This document shows positions 40,941-49,979 of a stretch of 64,000 bases of DNA, in pieces. Made by a program: the position numbers and the translations under genes. This stretch comes from Candidatus Barnesiella excrementigallinarum (lineage in GTDB: Bacteria > Bacteroidota > Bacteroidia > Bacteroidales > Barnesiellaceae). The notes under the pieces are model-generated. The model was not told where the DNA came from, ran no database searches, and saw nothing but the letters and a program-made list of their open reading frames with translations. Each line of letters starts with the position of its first letter. Positions within the stretch are counted from its first letter, which is position 1. Location of the stretch: contig DXFL01000023.1 in assembly GCA_019114445.1 (NCBI GenBank), forward strand, positions 1-64,000, read 5' to 3'.

Positions 40941-41011
40941 TGTCCGGTGGTGTAATGGTAGCACTTCGGATTCTGGTTCCGCCTGTGAGGGTTCGAGTCC
41001 TTCCCGGACAA
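40941..41011 (+). tRNA. tRNA-Gln (anticodon CTG)
   Basis: A 71-base cloverleaf: acceptor TGTCCGG / CCGGACA, D stem GTGT / GCAC, anticodon loop TTCTGGT (CTG, codon CAG), T stem GAGGG / CCTTC with loop TTCGAGT, discriminator A. The outermost anticodon-stem pair (27-43) is T-C. CCA is not encoded. A terminator follows directly. Confidence 0.93.
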
Positions 41012-41012
41012 C

Positions 41013-41063: not shown

Positions 41064-41459
41064 CTATTCCAATATATCGTCAGGAACCAAAGGAGAGTAC
41101 GGACCGTCCTTCACCTCAAAAATAACCGTATCGCTGCACAGCACCTCAATCGTATGCCACTGTCCGCGAGGAATGTTTATCCCATACACACCCTTTTGCG
41201 GGTCGAGTTCACGACGTTCGATTTCCCGCTTGTGTTCGTCATAAAACGACACATTCATGCGTCCTCGCAAAAGCACATAAGTCTCCGAAGTATGCCGATG
41301 ACGATGTACAGGCACAACCGTACCCGGTTCGAGAGCATTGAGCAACCGTTGAGCCGGGGAATCAAGCGACTCGTGAAAATTGTAATTCATGCGCAACCGG
41401 GTATTGGCTTTCGCCTCGGCCGACACCTTGTCGAGTAAACTCTTATCGATTGTTTCCAT
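41064..41459 (-). CDS. wbuC: WbuC-family cupin
   Basis: 131 residues. Start MDKSLLDKVSAEAKANTRLRMNYNFHESLD-like pattern (core RLRMNYNFHESLD) then cupin box 1 VPVHRHRHTSETYVLLRG (His, His, Glu metal ligands) and box 2 YGINIPRGQWHTIEVL (His). WbuC proteins are found at the ends of O-antigen and capsule loci; their reaction is unknown. Overlaps the glycosyltransferase gene by 17 bases; last gene of the locus. Confidence 0.9.
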   Translation of the reverse strand: METIDKSLLDKVSAEAKANTRLRMNYNFHESLDSPAQRLLNALEPGTVVPVHRHRHTSETYVLLRGRMNVSFYDEHKREIERRELDPQKGVYGINIPRGQWHTIEVLCSDTVIFEVKDGPYSPLVPDDILE

Positions 41460-42249
41460 TGATATTCTTTAATTTCTTTTTTATGCGTATTCGAGTATAT
41501 AGCACCTCGTAAATCTTATACACGTAGCGTAACGACAAAATTACAAAATTGGTATAAACGCCATGTTCCTTGCAGGCCTTTAAATGCTCTTTCATGATCG
41601 TTTTATGGGATTCCACACCACTCGTACTTATCCCTCCTACCCGCATAGTGATTAATGGTTCCGAGACATAATAAGTTTTAATTTTATGTATATACAACGC
41701 TCGTAATAAAAATTCAAAATCGGCGGCAATACGATATTCTATCCGATACAAGCCTATCTGTTTTATCAATTCACGCCGCATATAAAATGTAGGGTGTGCC
41801 GGTATAAAGCCCAGCCGCATCAACGACGGACGGAATATCGCCGATGAATAATACCGGATACATCGATTCAAATCATTAGGATGGACATACTCCAAATCGG
41901 CATATACCGCCCCGATCGCCTCATCTCGAAACGGAGCGACCAATCGAGACAGCGACCATTCATATTTATAAAAATCGTCGCTGTTCAACACCCCTACAAC
42001 ATCGCCCTCGGCCATCGCTATTCCTTTATTGATGGCATCATAAATTCCCCGGTCGGGAGCGCTTGTCCACTTCAACCGCCCTTGATACTGTGTTTCATAG
42101 TGTTGTATTAAATCTACGGTTCCATCGGTAGATGCGCCATCGACTATAATATGTTCCCAATCGACACCTGTTTGAGAAAAAATACTTTTTATCGTGTCGC
42201 CAAGTGTCTGTACACTATTATACGTAACCGTTATAATCGAAACTTTCAT
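41443..42249 (-). CDS. Glycosyltransferase family 2
   Basis: 268 residues, GT-A fold with no membrane helix. SIITVTYNSVQTLGDTIKSI, HIIVDGASTDGT, ISAPDRGIYDAINKGI-like APDRGIYDAMNKG pattern (here DRGIYDAINKG), GVLNSDDFY (metal-binding SDD) and HPTFYMRREL. It resembles colanic acid WcaE/WcaA-type enzymes. Adds one sugar of the repeat unit on the cytoplasmic side; sugar unknown. Overlaps neighbours by 17 and 4 bases. Confidence 0.9.
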   Translation of the reverse strand: MKVSIITVTYNSVQTLGDTIKSIFSQTGVDWEHIIVDGASTDGTVDLIQHYETQYQGRLKWTSAPDRGIYDAINKGIAMAEGDVVGVLNSDDFYKYEWSLSRLVAPFRDEAIGAVYADLEYVHPNDLNRCIRYYSSAIFRPSLMRLGFIPAHPTFYMRRELIKQIGLYRIEYRIAADFEFLLRALYIHKIKTYYVSEPLITMRVGGISTSGVESHKTIMKEHLKACKEHGVYTNFVILSLRYVYKIYEVLYTRIRIKKKLKNINGNNR

Positions 42250-43424
42250 CTTTTATTTTTATTTGTCAAAAGAGCCTTTCCTAAAATTTCTATCTGATTC
42301 TCAAAAGCATATTTCCGGGCGACGTTCAAAGCCTCCAACCTCATACTCTCTACTTCTGCCTGATGCCGGTAAACATACATAAAGGCCTTACTCAACTCAT
42401 CTATACTTTTGGGAGCAAACAATAATCCGGTATGCCCCGAATTGACGACATCGGGGATTCCTCCTACATTCGAAGCCAAAACCAAACAGCCTCCGGCCAT
42501 CGCCTCCAATACGACTTGGGGAAGCCCCTCGCTGTAACTCGGCAAAACAAATATATCGTGCGATCTATATTGTTTCATTAAATCGGGGCCGAATGGGACG
42601 AATCCCATTAATTCCACCTTTTCGGCTATTCCGTACCGTCCGATCAAACGTTTCACCTCGGGCATAAAGGCGCCGTCGCCTACAATGGTCAAACGCCAGT
42701 CAAACGGCATTTCGCCCGACAAACATTCAAGCAATTCCGTAAACCCCTTGTTTACTTCTACCCGACCTACAAACAGCAATTTTATCGGCCGAGACCAATC
42801 CACCGGCAACATCGATTCGGGTAAAACAATATCGGACAATCGATAAGGCGAGGTAGAAATATAATGCACTTTATCTGTGAAAAGCGAAAAACGATTGGCT
42901 ATTCTGCTGCCCAATGCCATCACTGTAATATCTTGTTTCGCCACTAACCGCTCTACCTGCCACTCAAAGAGATAGGCCAAGATAGTCGCTAAAATCTTCT
43001 TTATTCCGCCATATCGTTGAGGCAATACACGACGTGTATCTTGCCGCGCCAACAGAACCACCGGTTTACCGTATTTCCCTGCCAACTTCACCAGCTCGAT
43101 ACATATAGGCATAGGCGACATCACCAACAATATATCGACATTCTGCACAAAAGCCGAAAACGTGGCCTTGTTCTCTCGTTTTAATCGGGGCCAACGAATG
43201 CATAAATCGACTAAATCACGGAAAGGAGTCAACTCAAAAAAACGGTCATACCGGTCAAGAAGGTACATATTCTCTTTCTTACAAGCATACTGCCGTCCCA
43301 AGAAACTAAATGATATACCTTTCTCCTGAGATAACCGATTAAGCAATACGGTATAAATATCCTCACAAAAGAGCTTTTCGCCCTCTTTGTAATATCCGGC
43401 TTCAAGATAAACTCCTACTCTCAT
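42246..43424 (-). CDS. Glycosyltransferase family 4
   Basis: 392 residues, GT-B fold. N-terminal half MRVGVYLEAGYYKEGEK; C-terminal nucleotide-sugar domain with KLLFVGRVEVNKGFTELLE, ELMGFVPFGPDLMKQY, FVLPSYSEGLPQVVLEAMAGGCLVLASNVGGIPD (EX7E core SEGLPQVVLEAMA). Builds part of the repeat unit. An 86-base gap separates it from the next upstream gene, the largest but one in the locus, with no obvious promoter. Confidence 0.9.
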   Translation of the reverse strand: MRVGVYLEAGYYKEGEKLFCEDIYTVLLNRLSQEKGISFSFLGRQYACKKENMYLLDRYDRFFELTPFRDLVDLCIRWPRLKRENKATFSAFVQNVDILLVMSPMPICIELVKLAGKYGKPVVLLARQDTRRVLPQRYGGIKKILATILAYLFEWQVERLVAKQDITVMALGSRIANRFSLFTDKVHYISTSPYRLSDIVLPESMLPVDWSRPIKLLFVGRVEVNKGFTELLECLSGEMPFDWRLTIVGDGAFMPEVKRLIGRYGIAEKVELMGFVPFGPDLMKQYRSHDIFVLPSYSEGLPQVVLEAMAGGCLVLASNVGGIPDVVNSGHTGLLFAPKSIDELSKAFMYVYRHQAEVESMRLEALNVARKYAFENQIEILGKALLTNKNKR

Positions 43425-43510: not shown

Positions 43511-44587
43511 TTATCCAATAATCCGTAAATAAAGATTTAAAAAGGTCTCTTCCGAAAAAAGTCTCTCTGCCTGCAATCGAGCATTATGCGCAAGTTCTTT
43601 CTTCTGTTCCACCGGCAAAGCGATAAACCGTTCTATCACTCGAATAATATCCTGTACATCATTGGGGTCAAACAAAAATCCGCTTTTCCCCTCCTCTACA
43701 ATATAGGGGTTATCACAAACTCGACCACATACCACGGGTATACCACAACTCATCGCCTCGCACAACACATTGGGAAAACCTTCGTAAATCGAAGGGAGGC
43801 AAAACAAGTCGGCACTACGATATACATTCTCAATATCTTCCTTCGGAGCATACATCTCAAATATGTTTTCCATGCCATACATCTTTACCTTTTCTTCACA
43901 AGATTTCATATAACTCGAAGGCTTTCCATACCACGATACCTTTACCGGATAATGCCTTCGTATGATGTTCACCGCCTCAATCAACCGAAGAACATTCTTT
44001 TGTTCCGAGAACCGACCCACTCCTACTATATGCAAACAATCTTCATTAGGAGTATACTCCACCGACGATGGTCTAAACCTTTTTAAATCGACACAATTTG
44101 TTATCACCTCGCATTTGGGCGACAAAAAAGGATACTGAGCCCTTATAAATTTATCCTGTGTATATGAATTGCTTACAATCTTATCGGCAAACCGATAACT
44201 CCAAAATTTTATTCTTTCCTTAACCGTCAATTGTTGTGTTGTATTGCGCTCCGAAACAATCAACTTAAATTTTCCAGCGCCTAACATTTTACAAATGCAA
44301 GCAATAATCGAGGGGCCGTCCAAATAAGAAATCACCACATCGGGCGAATAGGTCTTGATATACTTATATATCGTAAATATACGGCGCCATTTATTATTTG
44401 CTTTGGCCAAATACTCATATTCCACCCCATGCTCGTCGAGATACGAATCGTAAAAGGGGATATCATAATATGAGATCAATCGCACACGATAGCCCGAATC
44501 CTTCAACAAACGGGCCAACCCCACCAGTTGGCGCTGCGCACCACCAGAGGCCAAACAATCGATCATACAAAGTATCTTCTTAGCCAT
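43511..44587 (-). CDS. Glycosyltransferase family 4
   Basis: 358 residues from the ATG at 44587 (MAKKILCMIDCLASGGAQRQL); the frame extends upstream to 44629 inside wzy. The GGAQRQL loop and ISERNTTQQL are typical of GT4 enzymes of the WbpH/RfaG type; C-terminal core FCLPSIYEGFPNVLCEAMSCGIPVVCG (EX7E in YEGFPNVLCEAM). Acts on a lipid-linked acceptor in the cytoplasm. Overlaps the wzy end by eight bases. Confidence 0.9.
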   Translation of the reverse strand: MAKKILCMIDCLASGGAQRQLVGLARLLKDSGYRVRLISYYDIPFYDSYLDEHGVEYEYLAKANNKWRRIFTIYKYIKTYSPDVVISYLDGPSIIACICKMLGAGKFKLIVSERNTTQQLTVKERIKFWSYRFADKIVSNSYTQDKFIRAQYPFLSPKCEVITNCVDLKRFRPSSVEYTPNEDCLHIVGVGRFSEQKNVLRLIEAVNIIRRHYPVKVSWYGKPSSYMKSCEEKVKMYGMENIFEMYAPKEDIENVYRSADLFCLPSIYEGFPNVLCEAMSCGIPVVCGRVCDNPYIVEEGKSGFLFDPNDVQDIIRVIERFIALPVEQKKELAHNARLQAERLFSEETFLNLYLRIIG

Positions 44588-45767
44588 TATGTTTCTCTGT
44601 TTTAATACGAACTTTCTCCTCTCCTGCAATCAAACCCAGCAGTAAAATATACTCGGCATTCGATATGGCGGTATATCCCATTGAAAAAATAGACTGCAAA
44701 AACCAAATCAATATACACAAATAAGCCGATAATCGCATGATGGGAGATAACGACGAATTGCGTAAAAACTTAATCATACTAATAAATATCGTCAAATAGA
44801 GTATAACCCCTACCGCTCCATTGCTAATCAACAACTCCAGCCAGTCGTTATGTGCGAAATTTCCCCATACCGTCACCGACTGAGCCATACCGTTTCCAAA
44901 CATCAGCGTCCAAAAGTTTGTATCGTTATACCAGTGCCCGAACAATATGGGATAGGCCAACCCCCTGCCGCCGATACCATTGTCCTCCATAAACTCCATA
45001 CGAGCCAAAAGCCATTCGTTCGACTCATACGCATAATAAATAAGATAGCTAACCCCCAAAAGCAATATCAATGTAATAAAGAAGGTTTTCACGGATGCCT
45101 TATTCATTTTCATATAGAACATCAATGAAAAGAACAATGCTGCCAACATACACACGATAGTACCCCGCTTGGCGGCAAACATAATGAGCAAGATAGATAA
45201 TATCAATAATACGAAGCCAAAGACCTTATTCCGTTTCAACAAAAAAGGCAGGAATGGGAAAGCCCCCACGATAAAATAGCCACTGTTATTGGTTACCGCA
45301 TCGACCTTTAATGTGCTTAACAAAGTATTCAACATATAGAAATACCTTACAAATGCCAAAGCAAAAAATGCCAGTCCTATGTAAACGAACAAATTCTCGT
45401 TTAGCTTCCCAAATTTGCGGGAGATGACATATCCCATACAAAACGAGAGCATAAAAACCGATATTCCCTTAAATTGCTCCAATGTACTCGCCTTTCCTAT
45501 CGCTTCGTAAACCGTACCGAAAACCTCTTTCGGAGAAAAAAGGAACGTAATAGCCTGTACGAAATAAAAGATCAACCACATCGTCACAAAAAAAGGCTTA
45601 TGAACGTATATGGCCGTTTTTCCATAATAAAAAAGCCCTATCAACAAAAAAAGTAAAATGGCCAACTGAGATATGAGACTGCCCCCAGAATATAAAATAT
45701 CCTGTAAATAGTATACGATAAAGAGAATAACTACAACAAACAATATTATCGGTTTCCGCGATGCCAT
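44580..45767 (-). CDS. wzy: O-antigen polymerase / ligase-like (Wzy)
   Basis: 395 residues, about 11-12 membrane helices and a long loop near the C-terminus (MEFMEDNGIGGRGLAYPILFGHWYN core GIGGRGLAY; later GNFAHNDWLELLISNGAVGVILYL, with the H-N-D-W-L pattern of the O-antigen ligase family). In a Wzx/Wzy locus this is the polymerase that joins repeat units in the periplasm; a ligase role cannot be excluded from sequence alone. Confidence 0.85.
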   Translation of the reverse strand: MASRKPIILFVVVILFIVYYLQDILYSGGSLISQLAILLFLLIGLFYYGKTAIYVHKPFFVTMWLIFYFVQAITFLFSPKEVFGTVYEAIGKASTLEQFKGISVFMLSFCMGYVISRKFGKLNENLFVYIGLAFFALAFVRYFYMLNTLLSTLKVDAVTNNSGYFIVGAFPFLPFLLKRNKVFGFVLLILSILLIMFAAKRGTIVCMLAALFFSLMFYMKMNKASVKTFFITLILLLGVSYLIYYAYESNEWLLARMEFMEDNGIGGRGLAYPILFGHWYNDTNFWTLMFGNGMAQSVTVWGNFAHNDWLELLISNGAVGVILYLTIFISMIKFLRNSSLSPIMRLSAYLCILIWFLQSIFSMGYTAISNAEYILLLGLIAGEEKVRIKTEKHNG

Positions 45768-45813: not shown

Positions 45814-46776
45814 CTATCTATTTTGAAATGCATTAATTCTTTCGTCCCGGATTACTCCTTTTTCAATAATGAGGCTACGCCGTAACACCTCATTATCGAG
45901 TTCCCGTTCTTCGATAAAACAATCTAAATATTTCACGACCTCTTTACTTAATTCGCCTGAAACCGTTTTATAAAACAACGCCGGTGTATGGTCTACCACA
46001 TAGTGGCGAATCCCATCTACCATGTAATCGGGATTTTCGATAGTCATAGGTATGCTTGTTTCTATGCCTCCGCATCGGTCGCAACTAATGTCTATAATCA
46101 TAGATCCGGGCTTCATACGTTTCAGATCATCGCGATAGAGAATGTGGTCTTTACGTGAAGTATCCCACAATACGGCATTTACCACCACATCATAAAGCGG
46201 GAGCTCCTCCCTGAACAAAGCCTCTGTTTTTCGGTCATAAACAGTAACCATCGCGCCCATATAATTAAGCATATTCATTGCTCCTCGGGCAACATTGCCC
46301 CGCCCGATAACCGCCACTTTGGTATGGTATGGGAATATACCATGCCTCAAATAGGCATGAATAATTGCAGCTTCACCGGCAATTTCGTTATTCCGCCAAA
46401 AAGAGTGACGCCCCATTTCGTACATATCCTCCCAAGCATACGCCGATAATCGACCGTGAATAATCTTGTCGGTAATATCTCTGTTTTGAACGGCATGAAC
46501 CCAGCCAAAAATTATTTGGTCGGATAAATCGCCCAAATATTCGGCATCGCCTATTTTAGGGTCACAGATGATATCTTTCCTAAGGATTTCATCTCTCTCG
46601 CAAATGCCTTTGATACCCTCTCTCAAATAGCAATTATCGTCATAGCCCAAGACCTCGCCATAGCCCTTCTCGATAAAAACATACTCTTTGTTTTTTATAT
46701 ATTGCACATCGCATGGCAATAAAGCCCGTCTATGTTCATTCTCCTTTTGGCTTATTACAAATCCGATTGTTCTCAT
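45814..46776 (-). CDS. N5-(carboxyethyl)ornithine synthase-like dehydrogenase
   Basis: 320 residues, alanine dehydrogenase/transhydrogenase fold. Start RTIGFVISQKENEHRRALLP and EKGYGEVLGYDD resemble N5-(carboxyethyl)ornithine synthase; NAD(P)-binding VAVIGRGNVARGAM (GxGxxxxG) and late IDISCDRCGGIETS follow. Known members reductively condense pyruvate with the side-chain amino group of ornithine or lysine. In a polysaccharide locus the product would be an amino-acid substituent. Six bases before it, upstream on the mRNA, ends the ATP-grasp gene, consistent with joint function. Confidence 0.75.
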   Translation of the reverse strand: MRTIGFVISQKENEHRRALLPCDVQYIKNKEYVFIEKGYGEVLGYDDNCYLREGIKGICERDEILRKDIICDPKIGDAEYLGDLSDQIIFGWVHAVQNRDITDKIIHGRLSAYAWEDMYEMGRHSFWRNNEIAGEAAIIHAYLRHGIFPYHTKVAVIGRGNVARGAMNMLNYMGAMVTVYDRKTEALFREELPLYDVVVNAVLWDTSRKDHILYRDDLKRMKPGSMIIDISCDRCGGIETSIPMTIENPDYMVDGIRHYVVDHTPALFYKTVSGELSKEVVKYLDCFIEERELDNEVLRRSLIIEKGVIRDERINAFQNR

Positions 46777-46782
46777 AGGAAT

Positions 46783-47685
46783 TCAATTTTTCAAATTTAT
46801 CATAGAGCCCAATAATAAATCTGTTTCATCTAACAAGTTTGCATCGAAACCACTTGCCGGATAAAAAGTCATTTCACCGAACCAAATAACTCCATCTTGA
46901 TTATATAAATCTACTCGCACGAATGGAATCCCGGTCGATAACCGTCCGGCCAGCTCAAACATCTCGTCTATACCCCGAGGCTTCGGTAATGTAAAGCCTT
47001 CGGGAGCCTCTTTCCCCCGCTTGTTCAAGCGTAAAAGCGACCAAGCCCTATCGAAAAAATAAAACTTGGGACTGCCTATATTCCGATCGACACAAACCAT
47101 TACACAATAAACATTCCCATCGAAACAGAAAAATTTATAATCGTCTAAATCGCCGTGCCCATCGACCAAATACTCTTCGGCTATGATTCGGGGTGTAACA
47201 TTTCTATACGGCCACTCTTTCGTTAAGGCATATATATCGCGCTGCATAGAGTAGCTGAGTTTCGACAATGCCGCCTGCTTATCAAACTGCTTTTTATCCC
47301 GGCAAATTACCACTCCTTCGCCTCCGCCATCATGTGTCGTTTTCAATACAAATTTATCGGGCAACCTATCGAAATCGATCTCTTCCACCCGATTCCACAC
47401 ACCCAATGTCGGTATAATATACTTATCCCCTATTACAGAAGCTACATATTTTTTGGCTTCGCATTTATCCACCATCGTCGTATATTGGGGATTGCGATCA
47501 TATAATTTCAGCCACTGCAATTTTTCATTGAATGTTACCGGATTCTTCAAATGAAGGCTCTTTTTCATCATCAGAGAGTAAACCAAGCGCAAATAAACAG
47601 CATCACTGTAAAGAAAATAGGTTTTCTTTACAATGGCCAAAAACAATTGGCGTGGCGAACATATATAGTTGATAACAGACTGCAT
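46783..47685 (-). CDS. TupA-like ATP-grasp ligase
   Basis: 300 residues. ATP-grasp features of the TupA-like family: NPVTFNEKLQWLKLYDRNPQYTTMVDKCEAKKYV (cores FNEKLQWLKLYDRN, VDKCEAKKYV), then KFVLKTTHDGGGEGVVICRD (ATP-binding glycine loop), ITPRIIAEEYLVDG, DYKFFCFDG and VRVDLYNQDGVIWFGEMTFYPASGF (metal ligands E and the final FxPASG). TupA is tied to poly-amino acid attachment in teichuronopeptide; the family is thought to form amide bonds. Here it likely links an amino acid to a uronic acid carboxylate. Confidence 0.85.
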   Translation of the reverse strand: MQSVINYICSPRQLFLAIVKKTYFLYSDAVYLRLVYSLMMKKSLHLKNPVTFNEKLQWLKLYDRNPQYTTMVDKCEAKKYVASVIGDKYIIPTLGVWNRVEEIDFDRLPDKFVLKTTHDGGGEGVVICRDKKQFDKQAALSKLSYSMQRDIYALTKEWPYRNVTPRIIAEEYLVDGHGDLDDYKFFCFDGNVYCVMVCVDRNIGSPKFYFFDRAWSLLRLNKRGKEAPEGFTLPKPRGIDEMFELAGRLSTGIPFVRVDLYNQDGVIWFGEMTFYPASGFDANLLDETDLLLGSMINLKN

Positions 47686-47712
47686 ACAAAATATAATTAA
47701 AGATATAAAATC

Positions 47713-48966
47713 TTATTCTTTCATACAACGCTTTGCGGTTAAATAAATCGAAACTCCTATCGCACCCCGCGTCAGCAACAATACAAGAGCAACCCCTATA
47801 TAACTAAACTTGGGAACAAGTATCCAAGCTAAGATGAATCCGATAACAGACCACACCACGTATATGTTACGCATGAGATTTTCTTTTCCCACCAAAACCA
47901 AATAATTGGTTCCATAGGAGTTGGCAAGAAACATGAAAATGGGCGACAATGCCAATATGCGTATCACATACGCCGAATCCGAGAAATTGGGCGTTAAGAA
48001 TATATCTACAAAAAGGTCGGCACAAAGGAACATCAACAGGCTCATAACCAATGCGATCACCCCCGTAATCTTTACATACACGCTATGTTTCTCCTTATGT
48101 CTCGCCAAAAAAGGGAAAAATGTACGGGAAAGGACTTGTGTCAACTGGTCTACAATTCCATGAAACTTTTCGCCTCCCGAATAAATACCCGTAGCCCCCT
48201 CTCCGCAATAGGTCCGCAATAAAATTACCGAGAAATTATTATATAAGTTTGGGACTATCAGACTGACAAACATATTTGTCGAAGATTTCAATCGGTTCAC
48301 AATCGGTTTGATACCAGGGAATTTCACATATACCCCATACCGTTTTATCAAAATGTATATCGCAATTATTCCGCTTACCAAATAACCGCACGCAACCAAA
48401 AGGGGTTGGTATACATAATCGCTCTGTTTGCGAATGACGACAAATACCAATACCGTAAATATCAACTTCGACAAAACATTCAAAATCGTTATGTATTTCA
48501 TATGCTCGAATGCCTGAAACAGCCATTCGGGAAATAAAATATGTCCGGGGATATATGCAAATGTCAATAGTAACAATAACTCATACTCTTTCGAAACAGA
48601 AAACAAAGGTAACACCGAAAACAGCAGAACAAAGCAAATTACCATAAGGGTCAATTTCGAAAAAATCACCTCACTGAAAATTTGAGAAACCACATCGATA
48701 TTCTCCCGTGACCGGGCGGCGTCTCTAGTTGCCGTATAGTTAAATCCCCAATCAACGACAGTCTCCACAATTACAATCACGGCCGTAGCAAAAGCTATTG
48801 CACCAAACTTTTCCACACCTATCACCCGGGTGAGATAAGGCAATGTAATAAGCGGAAAAACAAACGATAAAACTTTAAGGAGCGACAAATAGAAAAAATT
48901 CCCTATCAGGCCCCGTGTATCCCGATTCTGAAAAAGCAATTTTATTTTCGACTTATCCAGCTGCAT
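47713..48966 (-). CDS. wzx: Polysaccharide flippase (Wzx)
   Basis: 417 residues with about 12 membrane helices. N-terminal NFFYLSLLKVLSFVFPLITLPYLTRVIGVEKFGAIAFA (cores FPLITLPYLTRVIG, FGAIAFA) is the standard Wzx/RfbX opening; GAVALY-like IYSGGEKFHG occurs mid-way. Exports undecaprenyl-linked repeat units to the periplasm. Its ATG overlaps the epimerase stop by one base (TAATG), so translation is coupled. Confidence 0.9.
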   Translation of the reverse strand: MQLDKSKIKLLFQNRDTRGLIGNFFYLSLLKVLSFVFPLITLPYLTRVIGVEKFGAIAFATAVIVIVETVVDWGFNYTATRDAARSRENIDVVSQIFSEVIFSKLTLMVICFVLLFSVLPLFSVSKEYELLLLLTFAYIPGHILFPEWLFQAFEHMKYITILNVLSKLIFTVLVFVVIRKQSDYVYQPLLVACGYLVSGIIAIYILIKRYGVYVKFPGIKPIVNRLKSSTNMFVSLIVPNLYNNFSVILLRTYCGEGATGIYSGGEKFHGIVDQLTQVLSRTFFPFLARHKEKHSVYVKITGVIALVMSLLMFLCADLFVDIFLTPNFSDSAYVIRILALSPIFMFLANSYGTNYLVLVGKENLMRNIYVVWSVIGFILAWILVPKFSYIGVALVLLLTRGAIGVSIYLTAKRCMKE

Positions 48967-49979
48967 TATTCACCACAATTATACGACTTATGCCACGCTA
49001 CGAATTCAGCCAATCCTTCGCCCAACGTAACCGAAGGCTTGAATCCGAACGTCTGTTCAAACTTCGACGAGTCGGCATACGTTTGGTACACATCGCCCGG
49101 TTGCATAGGATACATCTCCAATATGGCCTTTTTCCCCAAGTTCTCTTCCATGATATGAATAAAATCCATGAGAGGCACCGGATGCCCGCATCCTACATTA
49201 TAAACATCGTATATATGCTCCTCTTCGCGATTATAATCTATCGCTTTTACCGTAGCTTCCACAATATCGTCGATATAGGTAAAGTCCCTCGACAAGTTTC
49301 CGTTATTAAAAACTTTTATGGGACGGCCTTCTTGAATTGCTGTCACAAAAAGCGAAGGAGCCATATCGGGACGACCCCACGGCCCGTAAACCGTAAAATA
49401 TCGAAGTCCCGTCATGGGTATCCGGTACAGATGTGCATATACGTGCGCCATCAATTCATCTGATTTTTTCGTGGCGGCATATAAGCTCACAGGTTTATCG
49501 GTCTTGTCCTCCTCCGAAAATGGCACATGGGAGTTCATGCCATATACGCTGCTCGACGAAGCAAATACAAAATGCTTGACCGGATAGTGTCTCATACACT
49601 CCAACAGATTCACAAATCCTATCAGATTACTCTCTACATAGGCATACGGATTCTCCAAAGAATATCTTACCCCGGCTTGGGCTGCCAAATTACAGACCTT
49701 GTCGAAACGCTCTGCTTCAAAAAGATGTTGCAGACTTTCTCGCTCCGACAAATTTATTTTTATAAACCGCAATCCGTTATATAAACGGCTTTGAACAAAT
49801 ACCTTATCTTGTATGGCCGACTTATCTATTCCCAACAAAGACAAACGGGAATATTTTAACTCTACGTCATAATAATCGTTGATATTGTCGAGGGCAACAA
49901 CATCATCGCCCCGTTCTACTAACCTACGGCACAAATTACTGCCTATAAACCCGGCCCCACCGGTTACCAATATCTTCAT
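48966..49979 (-). CDS. UDP-glucuronate 4-epimerase
   Basis: 337 residues, extended SDR. GGAGFIGSNLCRRL (NAD), DNINDYYDVELKYSRL, NLAAQAGVRYSLENPYAYVESN (core LAAQAGVRYS), ASSSSVYG and YAATKKSDEL (YxxxK) and RYFTVYGPWGRPDMA are those of UDP-GlcA 4-epimerases (UDP-GlcA to UDP-GalA) rather than UDP-Glc 4-epimerases. First gene of the polysaccharide locus; transcribed from an element near 50330, giving a leader of about 345 bases. Confidence 0.9.
   Translation of the reverse strand: MKILVTGGAGFIGSNLCRRLVERGDDVVALDNINDYYDVELKYSRLSLLGIDKSAIQDKVFVQSRLYNGLRFIKINLSERESLQHLFEAERFDKVCNLAAQAGVRYSLENPYAYVESNLIGFVNLLECMRHYPVKHFVFASSSSVYGMNSHVPFSEEDKTDKPVSLYAATKKSDELMAHVYAHLYRIPMTGLRYFTVYGPWGRPDMAPSLFVTAIQEGRPIKVFNNGNLSRDFTYIDDIVEATVKAIDYNREEEHIYDVYNVGCGHPVPLMDFIHIMEENLGKKAILEMYPMQPGDVYQTYADSSKFEQTFGFKPSVTLGEGLAEFVAWHKSYNCGE

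Follow-up and report, generated by a model that had tools for sequence, protein, structure and literature searches.

A recurrent TupA and carboxyethylornithine synthase-like gene pair and the predicted uronamide decoration of a surface polysaccharide in Candidatus Barnesiella excrementigallinarum

Uronic acids amidated with a carboxyethylated amino acid are already known from some enterobacterial O-antigens, and the present study concerns a locus of Candidatus Barnesiella excrementigallinarum (Bacteroidales; Barnesiellaceae) that is predicted to encode a comparable decoration. The locus lies in the first 64,000 nucleotides of contig DXFL01000023.1 (assembly GCA_019114445.1), hereafter referred to as the window, and its core is a pair of genes encoding a TupA-type ATP-grasp ligase and a dehydrogenase resembling N5-(carboxyethyl)ornithine synthase (CEOS). 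The product predicted here is carried by the O-antigen of Providencia rustigianii O14, which contains the galacturonic acid (GalA) amide of N-epsilon-(S)-1-carboxyethyl-L-lysine, and P. alcalifaciens O35 contains the alanopine amide of 4-amino-4-deoxyquinovose (Qui4N) (PMC10609480). The O14 system differs in that it is known by chemistry and belongs to a different phylum. For Proteus, a legend on the repeat units names R-Cet-L-Lys and lysine amides of GalA are described as common (PMC11989651), N-(R)-1-carboxyethyl-ethanolamine phosphate is listed as a component of the polysaccharides (PMC9630907), and 60 O-antigen gene clusters have been reported in a paper whose main text does not contain the terms lysine, ATP-grasp, amide or AlaLys (PMC5560731). 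No paper was found that assigns genes to carboxyethyl amino acid uronamides, or that links CEOS or a carboxyethyl amino acid to TupA or another ATP-grasp gene in a polysaccharide cluster; the subscription literature lay mostly outside this search, which makes it weak evidence of novelty. The chemistry is thus known from other bacteria, and the search gave no paper on the gene pair.

Among the closest described systems is the capsule amidation of Campylobacter jejuni HS:2, in which the C-terminal TupA-like domain of Cj1438 is reported to form an amide on the C6 carboxylate of glucuronic acid (GlcA) before the next sugar is added (PMC11800379). The window's system shares with it a TupA-like ATP-grasp, a (predicted) amide at the C6 carboxylate of a uronic acid and a surface polysaccharide as the target, but in C. 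jejuni the amines are serinol phosphate or ethanolamine phosphate, the sugar is GlcA and no CEOS is named in the accessible text (PMC11800379). TupA of Bacillus halodurans, the namesake of the Pfam family, belongs to teichuronopeptide, likewise a polymer in which a uronic acid polymer is joined with an amino acid, but the components are polyglutamate and polyglucuronate of a Gram-positive wall, and CEOS is not mentioned in the accessible part of the source (PMC8153356). The CEOS of Lactococcus is, like the window's dehydrogenase, a member of the alanine dehydrogenase (AlaDH)/PNT superfamily of similar length (310 vs. 320 aa) and has Trp92 and Asn129 in common with it; the two are only 34% identical, and the plasmid copy of the Lactococcus gene (L008) lies outside any polysaccharide cluster. 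Characterised CEOS enzymes act on free lysine and ornithine.

The original prediction, made from the DNA letters of the window, described a UDP-glucuronate 4-epimerase gene, the ligase gene and the dehydrogenase gene as three adjacent genes. All three are open reading frames of the minus strand (48966..49979, 46783..47685 and 45814..46776, respectively) and the last two are indeed six bases apart, but a Wzx flippase gene (47713-48966) stands between the epimerase and ligase genes.

The dehydrogenase and the ligase

The CEOS-like dehydrogenase (320 aa; 45814..46776, minus strand) is predicted from its AlaDh_PNT domains, model, tree position and residues to make an N-(1-carboxyethyl) amino compound. 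It matches the Pfam families AlaDh_PNT_C (PF01262; 82.7 bits, cut-off 23) and AlaDh_PNT_N (PF05222; 40.5 bits, cut-off 30.4), and its AlphaFold2 model (predicted local distance difference test (pLDDT) 95.6) has an alanine-dehydrogenase fold, with Foldseek matches to M. tuberculosis alanine dehydrogenase at a query template-modelling score (TMq) of 0.85-0.88; the PDB titles among these matches name a D270A mutant and a pyruvate complex. The AlaDH encoded elsewhere in this genome has Arg15, His96 and Asp270 at the aligned positions of Arg16, His94 and Asp233, and Lys74 matches the AlaDH lysine in the HMMER alignment and is one position off in that made with MAFFT; we take the equivalents of these four residues to have pyruvate-binding and catalytic roles. 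Trp92 and Asn129 are common to the CEOS proteins of Lactococcus, Vagococcus and Escherichia coli (the identity to the E. coli plasmid protein is 37%), whereas three AlaDH have Tyr and Met.

In a 90-row maximum-likelihood tree (all trees were quick searches without bootstrap) the AlaDH rows split from all CEOS rows with a support of 93, which is below the 95 at which the tool sets its star, and the window protein stands on the same side as the Lactococcus and Vagococcus proteins annotated as CEOS, themselves on a long branch. The original prediction that the protein is CEOS-like and does not group with alanine dehydrogenases thus agrees with the tree. Identity as an alanine dehydrogenase was rejected on this separation, on a score far below the NCBIfam alaDH cut-off (TIGR00518; 95.6 vs. 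391.85 bits) and on the presence of another AlaDH-like gene in the genome, which also makes plain AlaDH duty unlikely for this protein.

The TupA-type ATP-grasp ligase (300 aa; 46783..47685, minus strand; PF14305 ATPgrasp_TupA, 213.3 bits, cut-off 25) is predicted, by analogy with the C. jejuni domain, to form an amide on a uronic acid. Its model is also confident (pLDDT 94.9), and the best solved Foldseek matches are ATP-grasp ligases, namely PsnB, D-Ala-D-Ala ligases, RizA and LysX. The TMq values of 0.36-0.48 among the 50 matches listed therefore place it within the ATP-grasp superfamily and not close to any solved member; a sequence search of the PDB gave one match only (E 0.7), taken as chance. 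Nineteen columns are invariant across 39 TupA homologues, the window protein included. Hence the expectation that the ligase keeps the residues conserved in its family, as well as the ATP-grasp fold, was borne out, and an inactive ATP-grasp is not supported.

Recurrence and co-inheritance of the gene pair

Genome contigs were scanned with a six-row CEOS alignment, and the best 80 of 299 relatives were kept; 79 loci were counted after removal of L030, in which an intact CEOS frame was not found. The loci are not independent, as they include near copies or close kin (L076/L081, L077/L079, L025/L036, L056/L057 and L035/L041), and, to judge by their equal lengths, L013, L019 and L050 evidently correspond to contigs of genomes G003, G127 and G251. 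TupA adjoins CEOS in 33 of the 79 loci, from both Bacteroidota and Bacillota, and accounts for 33 of 137 same-strand direct neighbours vs. 14 of 587 same-strand genes at positions 2-6 on either side (Fisher p 1.6e-15, ignoring the relatedness of loci). TupA makes up 28 of the 72 same-strand genes directly upstream of CEOS and 5 of the 65 directly downstream, and an identical 4-base gene overlap occurs in nine TupA-CEOS pairs. Chance adjacency was rejected on the enrichment of direct neighbours over positions 2-6: the gene module is real and recurrent. The state of TupA changes at least 14 times on the CEOS tree, and therefore the pairing has been gained or lost repeatedly.

Other ligases also accompany CEOS. 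Within two genes of it, TupA was found in 37 loci, ATPgrasp_ST in 14, another ATP-grasp type in 5 and any ATP-grasp in 50, and a family that we call AMP-ligase-like (the name is inferred and its representative has no Pfam match) lies within three genes in 16. Three loci (L015, L048 and L059) have the order TupA, ATPgrasp_ST, CEOS; two ligases by one CEOS could mean that two couplings follow one another. A CapA-like PGA_cap protein (PF09587; L043:8794-9930 and relatives) is encoded within four genes of CEOS in 13 loci. In L011 (2765-14009) the CEOS is 69-70% identical to that of the window, two ATPgrasp_ST genes lie just upstream of the cluster, and the cluster also encodes a second AlaDh_PNT_N protein, a class-V aminotransferase, LicD, an IspD-like protein and a cytidylyltransferase-GFO/IDH/MocA fusion.

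The window TupA belongs to a 27-row clade (Shimodaira-Hasegawa-like approximate likelihood-ratio test (SH-aLRT) 99) spanning Bacteroidota and Bacillota, of which 25 rows are at most two genes away from CEOS and the other two come from elsewhere in CEOS loci; no member of a Bacteroidales background set of 25 TupAs falls inside it. Among 395 Bacteroidota genomes, seven besides the window's own have a TupA at E <=1e-50, all at most 42% identical. Since the clade rows had been found through CEOS, a reciprocal search was run with the window TupA alone against 375 genomes of one clostridial order, and its 16 matches, from 15 genomes, were added to the tree. The clade took in five of these, of which three adjoin a CEOS gene and two do not; the 11 outside the clade have no CEOS within about 1.5 kb. 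The tree enlarged with the reciprocal and extra background rows has a clade of 32 rows, and 0 of 32 Bacteroidota background TupAs lie inside. A set of 23 genomes, made up of the 15 with TupA matches and eight others, was chosen for whole-genome CEOS searches, which revealed a close CEOS in three of the 15, always directly downstream of a clade TupA, and in one of the eight (G127). TupA and CEOS are partially co-inherited; the reciprocal test is small and points the same way.

A parallel pair was found in E. coli. In two plasmids, an ATP-grasp gene of another type overlaps the CEOS gene within clusters that also hold a flippase, glycosyltransferases, an EpsG-type polymerase, an epimerase (51% identical to the window epimerase in the first plasmid) and a UDP-glucose dehydrogenase. 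A Pfam search with this ATP-grasp gave no match, and NCBI annotates the L132 copy as an ATP-grasp domain-containing protein. Only five of 5,426 E. coli genomes have a CEOS match: the two plasmids and three chromosomes (L129, L130 and L131) whose CEOS DNA is about 71% identical. There the CEOS and ATP-grasp pair lies amid insertion sequences and partial genes, the CEOS is annotated as alanine dehydrogenase, and in the two chromosomes tested the preceding gene is 75% identical to the plasmid ATP-grasp. As to the originally expected co-occurrence across genomes, the CEOS-TupA pair does recur across phyla, but the trio with the epimerase is not general (13 of 37 TupA loci).

The polysaccharide block and its site in Barnesiella

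The pair forms part of a minus-strand block running from 49979 down to 41064. It begins with the gene for the UDP-glucuronate 4-epimerase-like protein (337 aa; 48966..49979; PF01370 Epimerase, 199.4 bits, cut-off 20.9), which is followed by that for the Wzx-type oligosaccharide flippase (417 aa; 47713..48966; PF01943, 168.4 bits) and, beyond the TupA and CEOS-like genes, by that for a Wzy-like polymerase (395 aa; 44580..45767), so named from its block position and a PF04932 score of 25.6 bits, below the cut-off of 31.7. Then come two group-1 glycosyltransferases, one of 372 aa (43511..44629; PF00534, 111.7 bits; 71% identical to its counterpart at the same place in Barnesiella An22) and one of 392 aa (42246..43424; PF00534, 113.1 bits), a family-2 glycosyltransferase (268 aa; 41443..42249; PF00535, 90.1 bits) and, at the block end, a WbuC-family cupin (131 aa; 41064..41459; NCBIfam TIGR04366, 155 bits, cut-off 42). 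The best explanation of this gene content is that the block makes a Wzx/Wzy-type surface polysaccharide; that it does so and that the polymer also bears the proposed decoration is, jointly, somewhat probable. The GC content is 0.37-0.45 across kilobases 41-50 vs. 0.44-0.51 in the flanks shown.

The epimerase is a likely source of UDP-GalA. Its best solved matches are 5u4q (E 6e-108; named dTDP-glucose 4,6-dehydratase by the depositors) and 6zl6/6zla (E 1.5e-48), of which 6zla is presumably a UDP-GlcA 4-epimerase, and it reaches no equivalog cut-off among the 25 NCBIfam families listed. UDP-GlcA itself can probably be made, because a UDP-glucose dehydrogenase-like gene is present in the genome, on the same contig about 25 kb beyond the window.

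The block is bounded by an AtoC-like regulator and a sensor kinase on one side and by a tRNA-Gln (ctg) gene (40941..41012, plus strand; ARAGORN) on the other. The kinase was found in nine of nine Barnesiella genomes searched, and the region adjoining it was compared in the window, in strain An22 (G003) and in six of the other seven genomes, G005 being left out as its contig ends there. In An22, the epimerase, Wzx, TupA, CEOS, Wzy and first glycosyltransferase are found at 68-86% identity with their order kept, and the downstream genes differ. Genomes G001, G002, G004 and G006 have a different WbuC-ended cluster at the site, without TupA or CEOS, yet those of G001 and G006 contain homologues (71-85% identical) of the window's last two glycosyltransferases: 71-73% for the group-1 and 79% and 85% for the family-2 enzyme. 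The site is empty in G007, where the regulator is followed by the tRNA-Gln gene and by the acyltransferase and response regulator genes known from the window's other side; G008 shows neither WbuC nor a similar cluster beside the kinase. The far flank varies as well: in G001 and G004 WbuC is followed by tRNA-Lys instead of tRNA-Gln, and the stretches examined in G002 and G006 gave no tRNA. TupA and CEOS are present in the same two of nine Barnesiella genomes. The pattern resembles that of a serotype-type variable site, with the part from the epimerase to the first glycosyltransferase behaving as a unit.

Proposed decoration and competing explanations

From the observed gene families, conserved residues, predicted folds and recurrent pairing, we infer the substrates, product, linkage and stage as follows. 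The CEOS-like enzyme would couple pyruvate reductively with a small amino compound through one of its amines, most likely that in the side chain of L-lysine or L-ornithine, to give an N-(1-carboxyethyl) amino acid. As the repeat unit grows, TupA would use ATP to activate a hexuronic acid in it at the C6 carboxylate and form an amide between this carboxylate and the remaining free amine of the CEOS product. The presence of the epimerase points to GalA as this uronic acid, and by analogy with C. jejuni the reaction would take place on the lipid-linked repeat. We consider it moderately probable that CEOS makes an N-(carboxyethyl)amino acid which TupA amide-links to a uronic acid, perhaps GalA. 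Some amide of a carboxyethylated amine on a uronic acid is fairly probable, and the specific version with lysine or ornithine on GalA is tentative.

Several observations weigh against this reading. The CEOS-like protein is only 34% identical to Lactococcus CEOS, whose type sits on a long branch of the 90-row tree with unsure placement, and no positive-control genome (a strain with a known carboxyethyl-lysine polysaccharide; Providencia and Proteus were tried) was found. TupA is missing within two genes of CEOS in 42 of the 79 loci, and seven Clostridium or Carnobacteriaceae loci (L062, L069, L074, L084, L086, L087 and L088) have CEOS relatives (56-60% identical) without labelled ligase or sugar genes nearby. 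In an even sample of 393 Bacteroidales genomes, a close CEOS was found in three and a TupA over the cut-off in 31, and the two are neighbours in the window's genome alone; G127 has TupA and CEOS on separate contigs, and G251 is not one of the 31 with TupA. The two clade-TupA genomes without CEOS beside TupA have no close CEOS anywhere in the genome, and of the three positives of the reciprocal search one was the genome on which the search was centred and another has a TupA that is identical to an earlier row, which leaves only G1007 as fresh. Lastly, 13 of the 37 loci that have TupA no more than two genes from CEOS also have an epimerase within six genes (labelled at >=42% identity to the window protein over >250 columns), vs. 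1 of the 42 other loci (Fisher p 1.7e-4), but this link is not significant after pairing by relatedness (7 informative pairs, median p 0.5). The corresponding link for epimerase or UDP-glucose dehydrogenase (20 of 37 vs. 8 of 42; Fisher p 0.002) has a median p of 0.25 after pairing, with its direction mostly unchanged. Because this pairing leaves too few informative pairs, the identification of the sugar as GalA is suggestive only. The original inference of a galacturonamide thus holds in part: the families, the pairing and the C. jejuni precedent (PMC11800379) speak for it, and the epimerase link does not survive the correction.

The enzymes might use other substrates, with CEOS carboxyethylating ethanolamine phosphate, serinol phosphate, alanine or a diamine and TupA amidating GlcA or another uronic acid with the product. 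The amine specificity of Lactococcus CEOS is not transferable at an identity of only 34%, and both the amines used in C. jejuni (PMC11800379) and the carboxyethyl-ethanolamine phosphate of Proteus (PMC9630907) fit this explanation; carboxyethyl-lysine on GalA is nevertheless a known polymer component (PMC10609480). The use of free lysine and ornithine by characterised CEOS counts against it too, and we regard it as unlikely. The opine might also supply the carboxylate for an amide with an amino sugar, the ATP-grasp activating the opine and not the uronic acid. The alanopine amide of Qui4N in P. alcalifaciens O35 is a precedent (PMC10609480), but Pfam and NCBIfam recognised no amino-sugar gene in the window block, and no DegT-type aminotransferase occurs among the 25 families shown (including all with at least three members) for 93 TupA-CEOS neighbour genes, scanned out of 150 listed and 119 within the size limit. 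The excess of uronic-acid genes in TupA-CEOS loci (20 of 37 vs. 8 of 42, not significant after pairing by relatedness) also speaks against such a linkage, which we consider highly improbable.

Finally, the two genes could be mere neighbours, TupA attaching a plain amino acid such as lysine to a uronic acid and CEOS serving something else. Proteus commonly has lysine amides of GalA (PMC11989651), some CEOS genes lie away from such clusters, and 28 non-Barnesiella Bacteroidales background TupA loci have no CEOS within about 1.5 kb (one 13.9-bit match, L119). Against this stand the 33 of 79 loci in which the two genes adjoin (in nine of them overlapping by the same 4 bases), the CEOS-tied TupA clade, the E. 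coli plasmids in which a second type of ATP-grasp gene overlaps CEOS, and the separate AlaDH-like gene of the genome, and we hold the explanation to be very improbable.

Beyond this locus, it is a serious possibility, though not one we would assert, that CEOS supplies carboxyethyl amino compounds to the surface polysaccharides of bacteria from different phyla, as a common source for interchangeable ligases (the dedicated TupA clade, another ATP-grasp type, ATPgrasp_ST and perhaps an AMP-forming ligase), and that the decoration is widespread in gut Bacteroidales and Clostridia. If so, opine-type amide decoration would be an unrecognised surface chemistry, widespread in these groups. Zwitterionic surface groups matter for immune recognition, and such a compact gene pair would allow the decoration to be predicted from sequence, including in gut commensals. 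With the pair recurring in other surface-sugar clusters, the gene basis of a known sugar decoration becomes testable.

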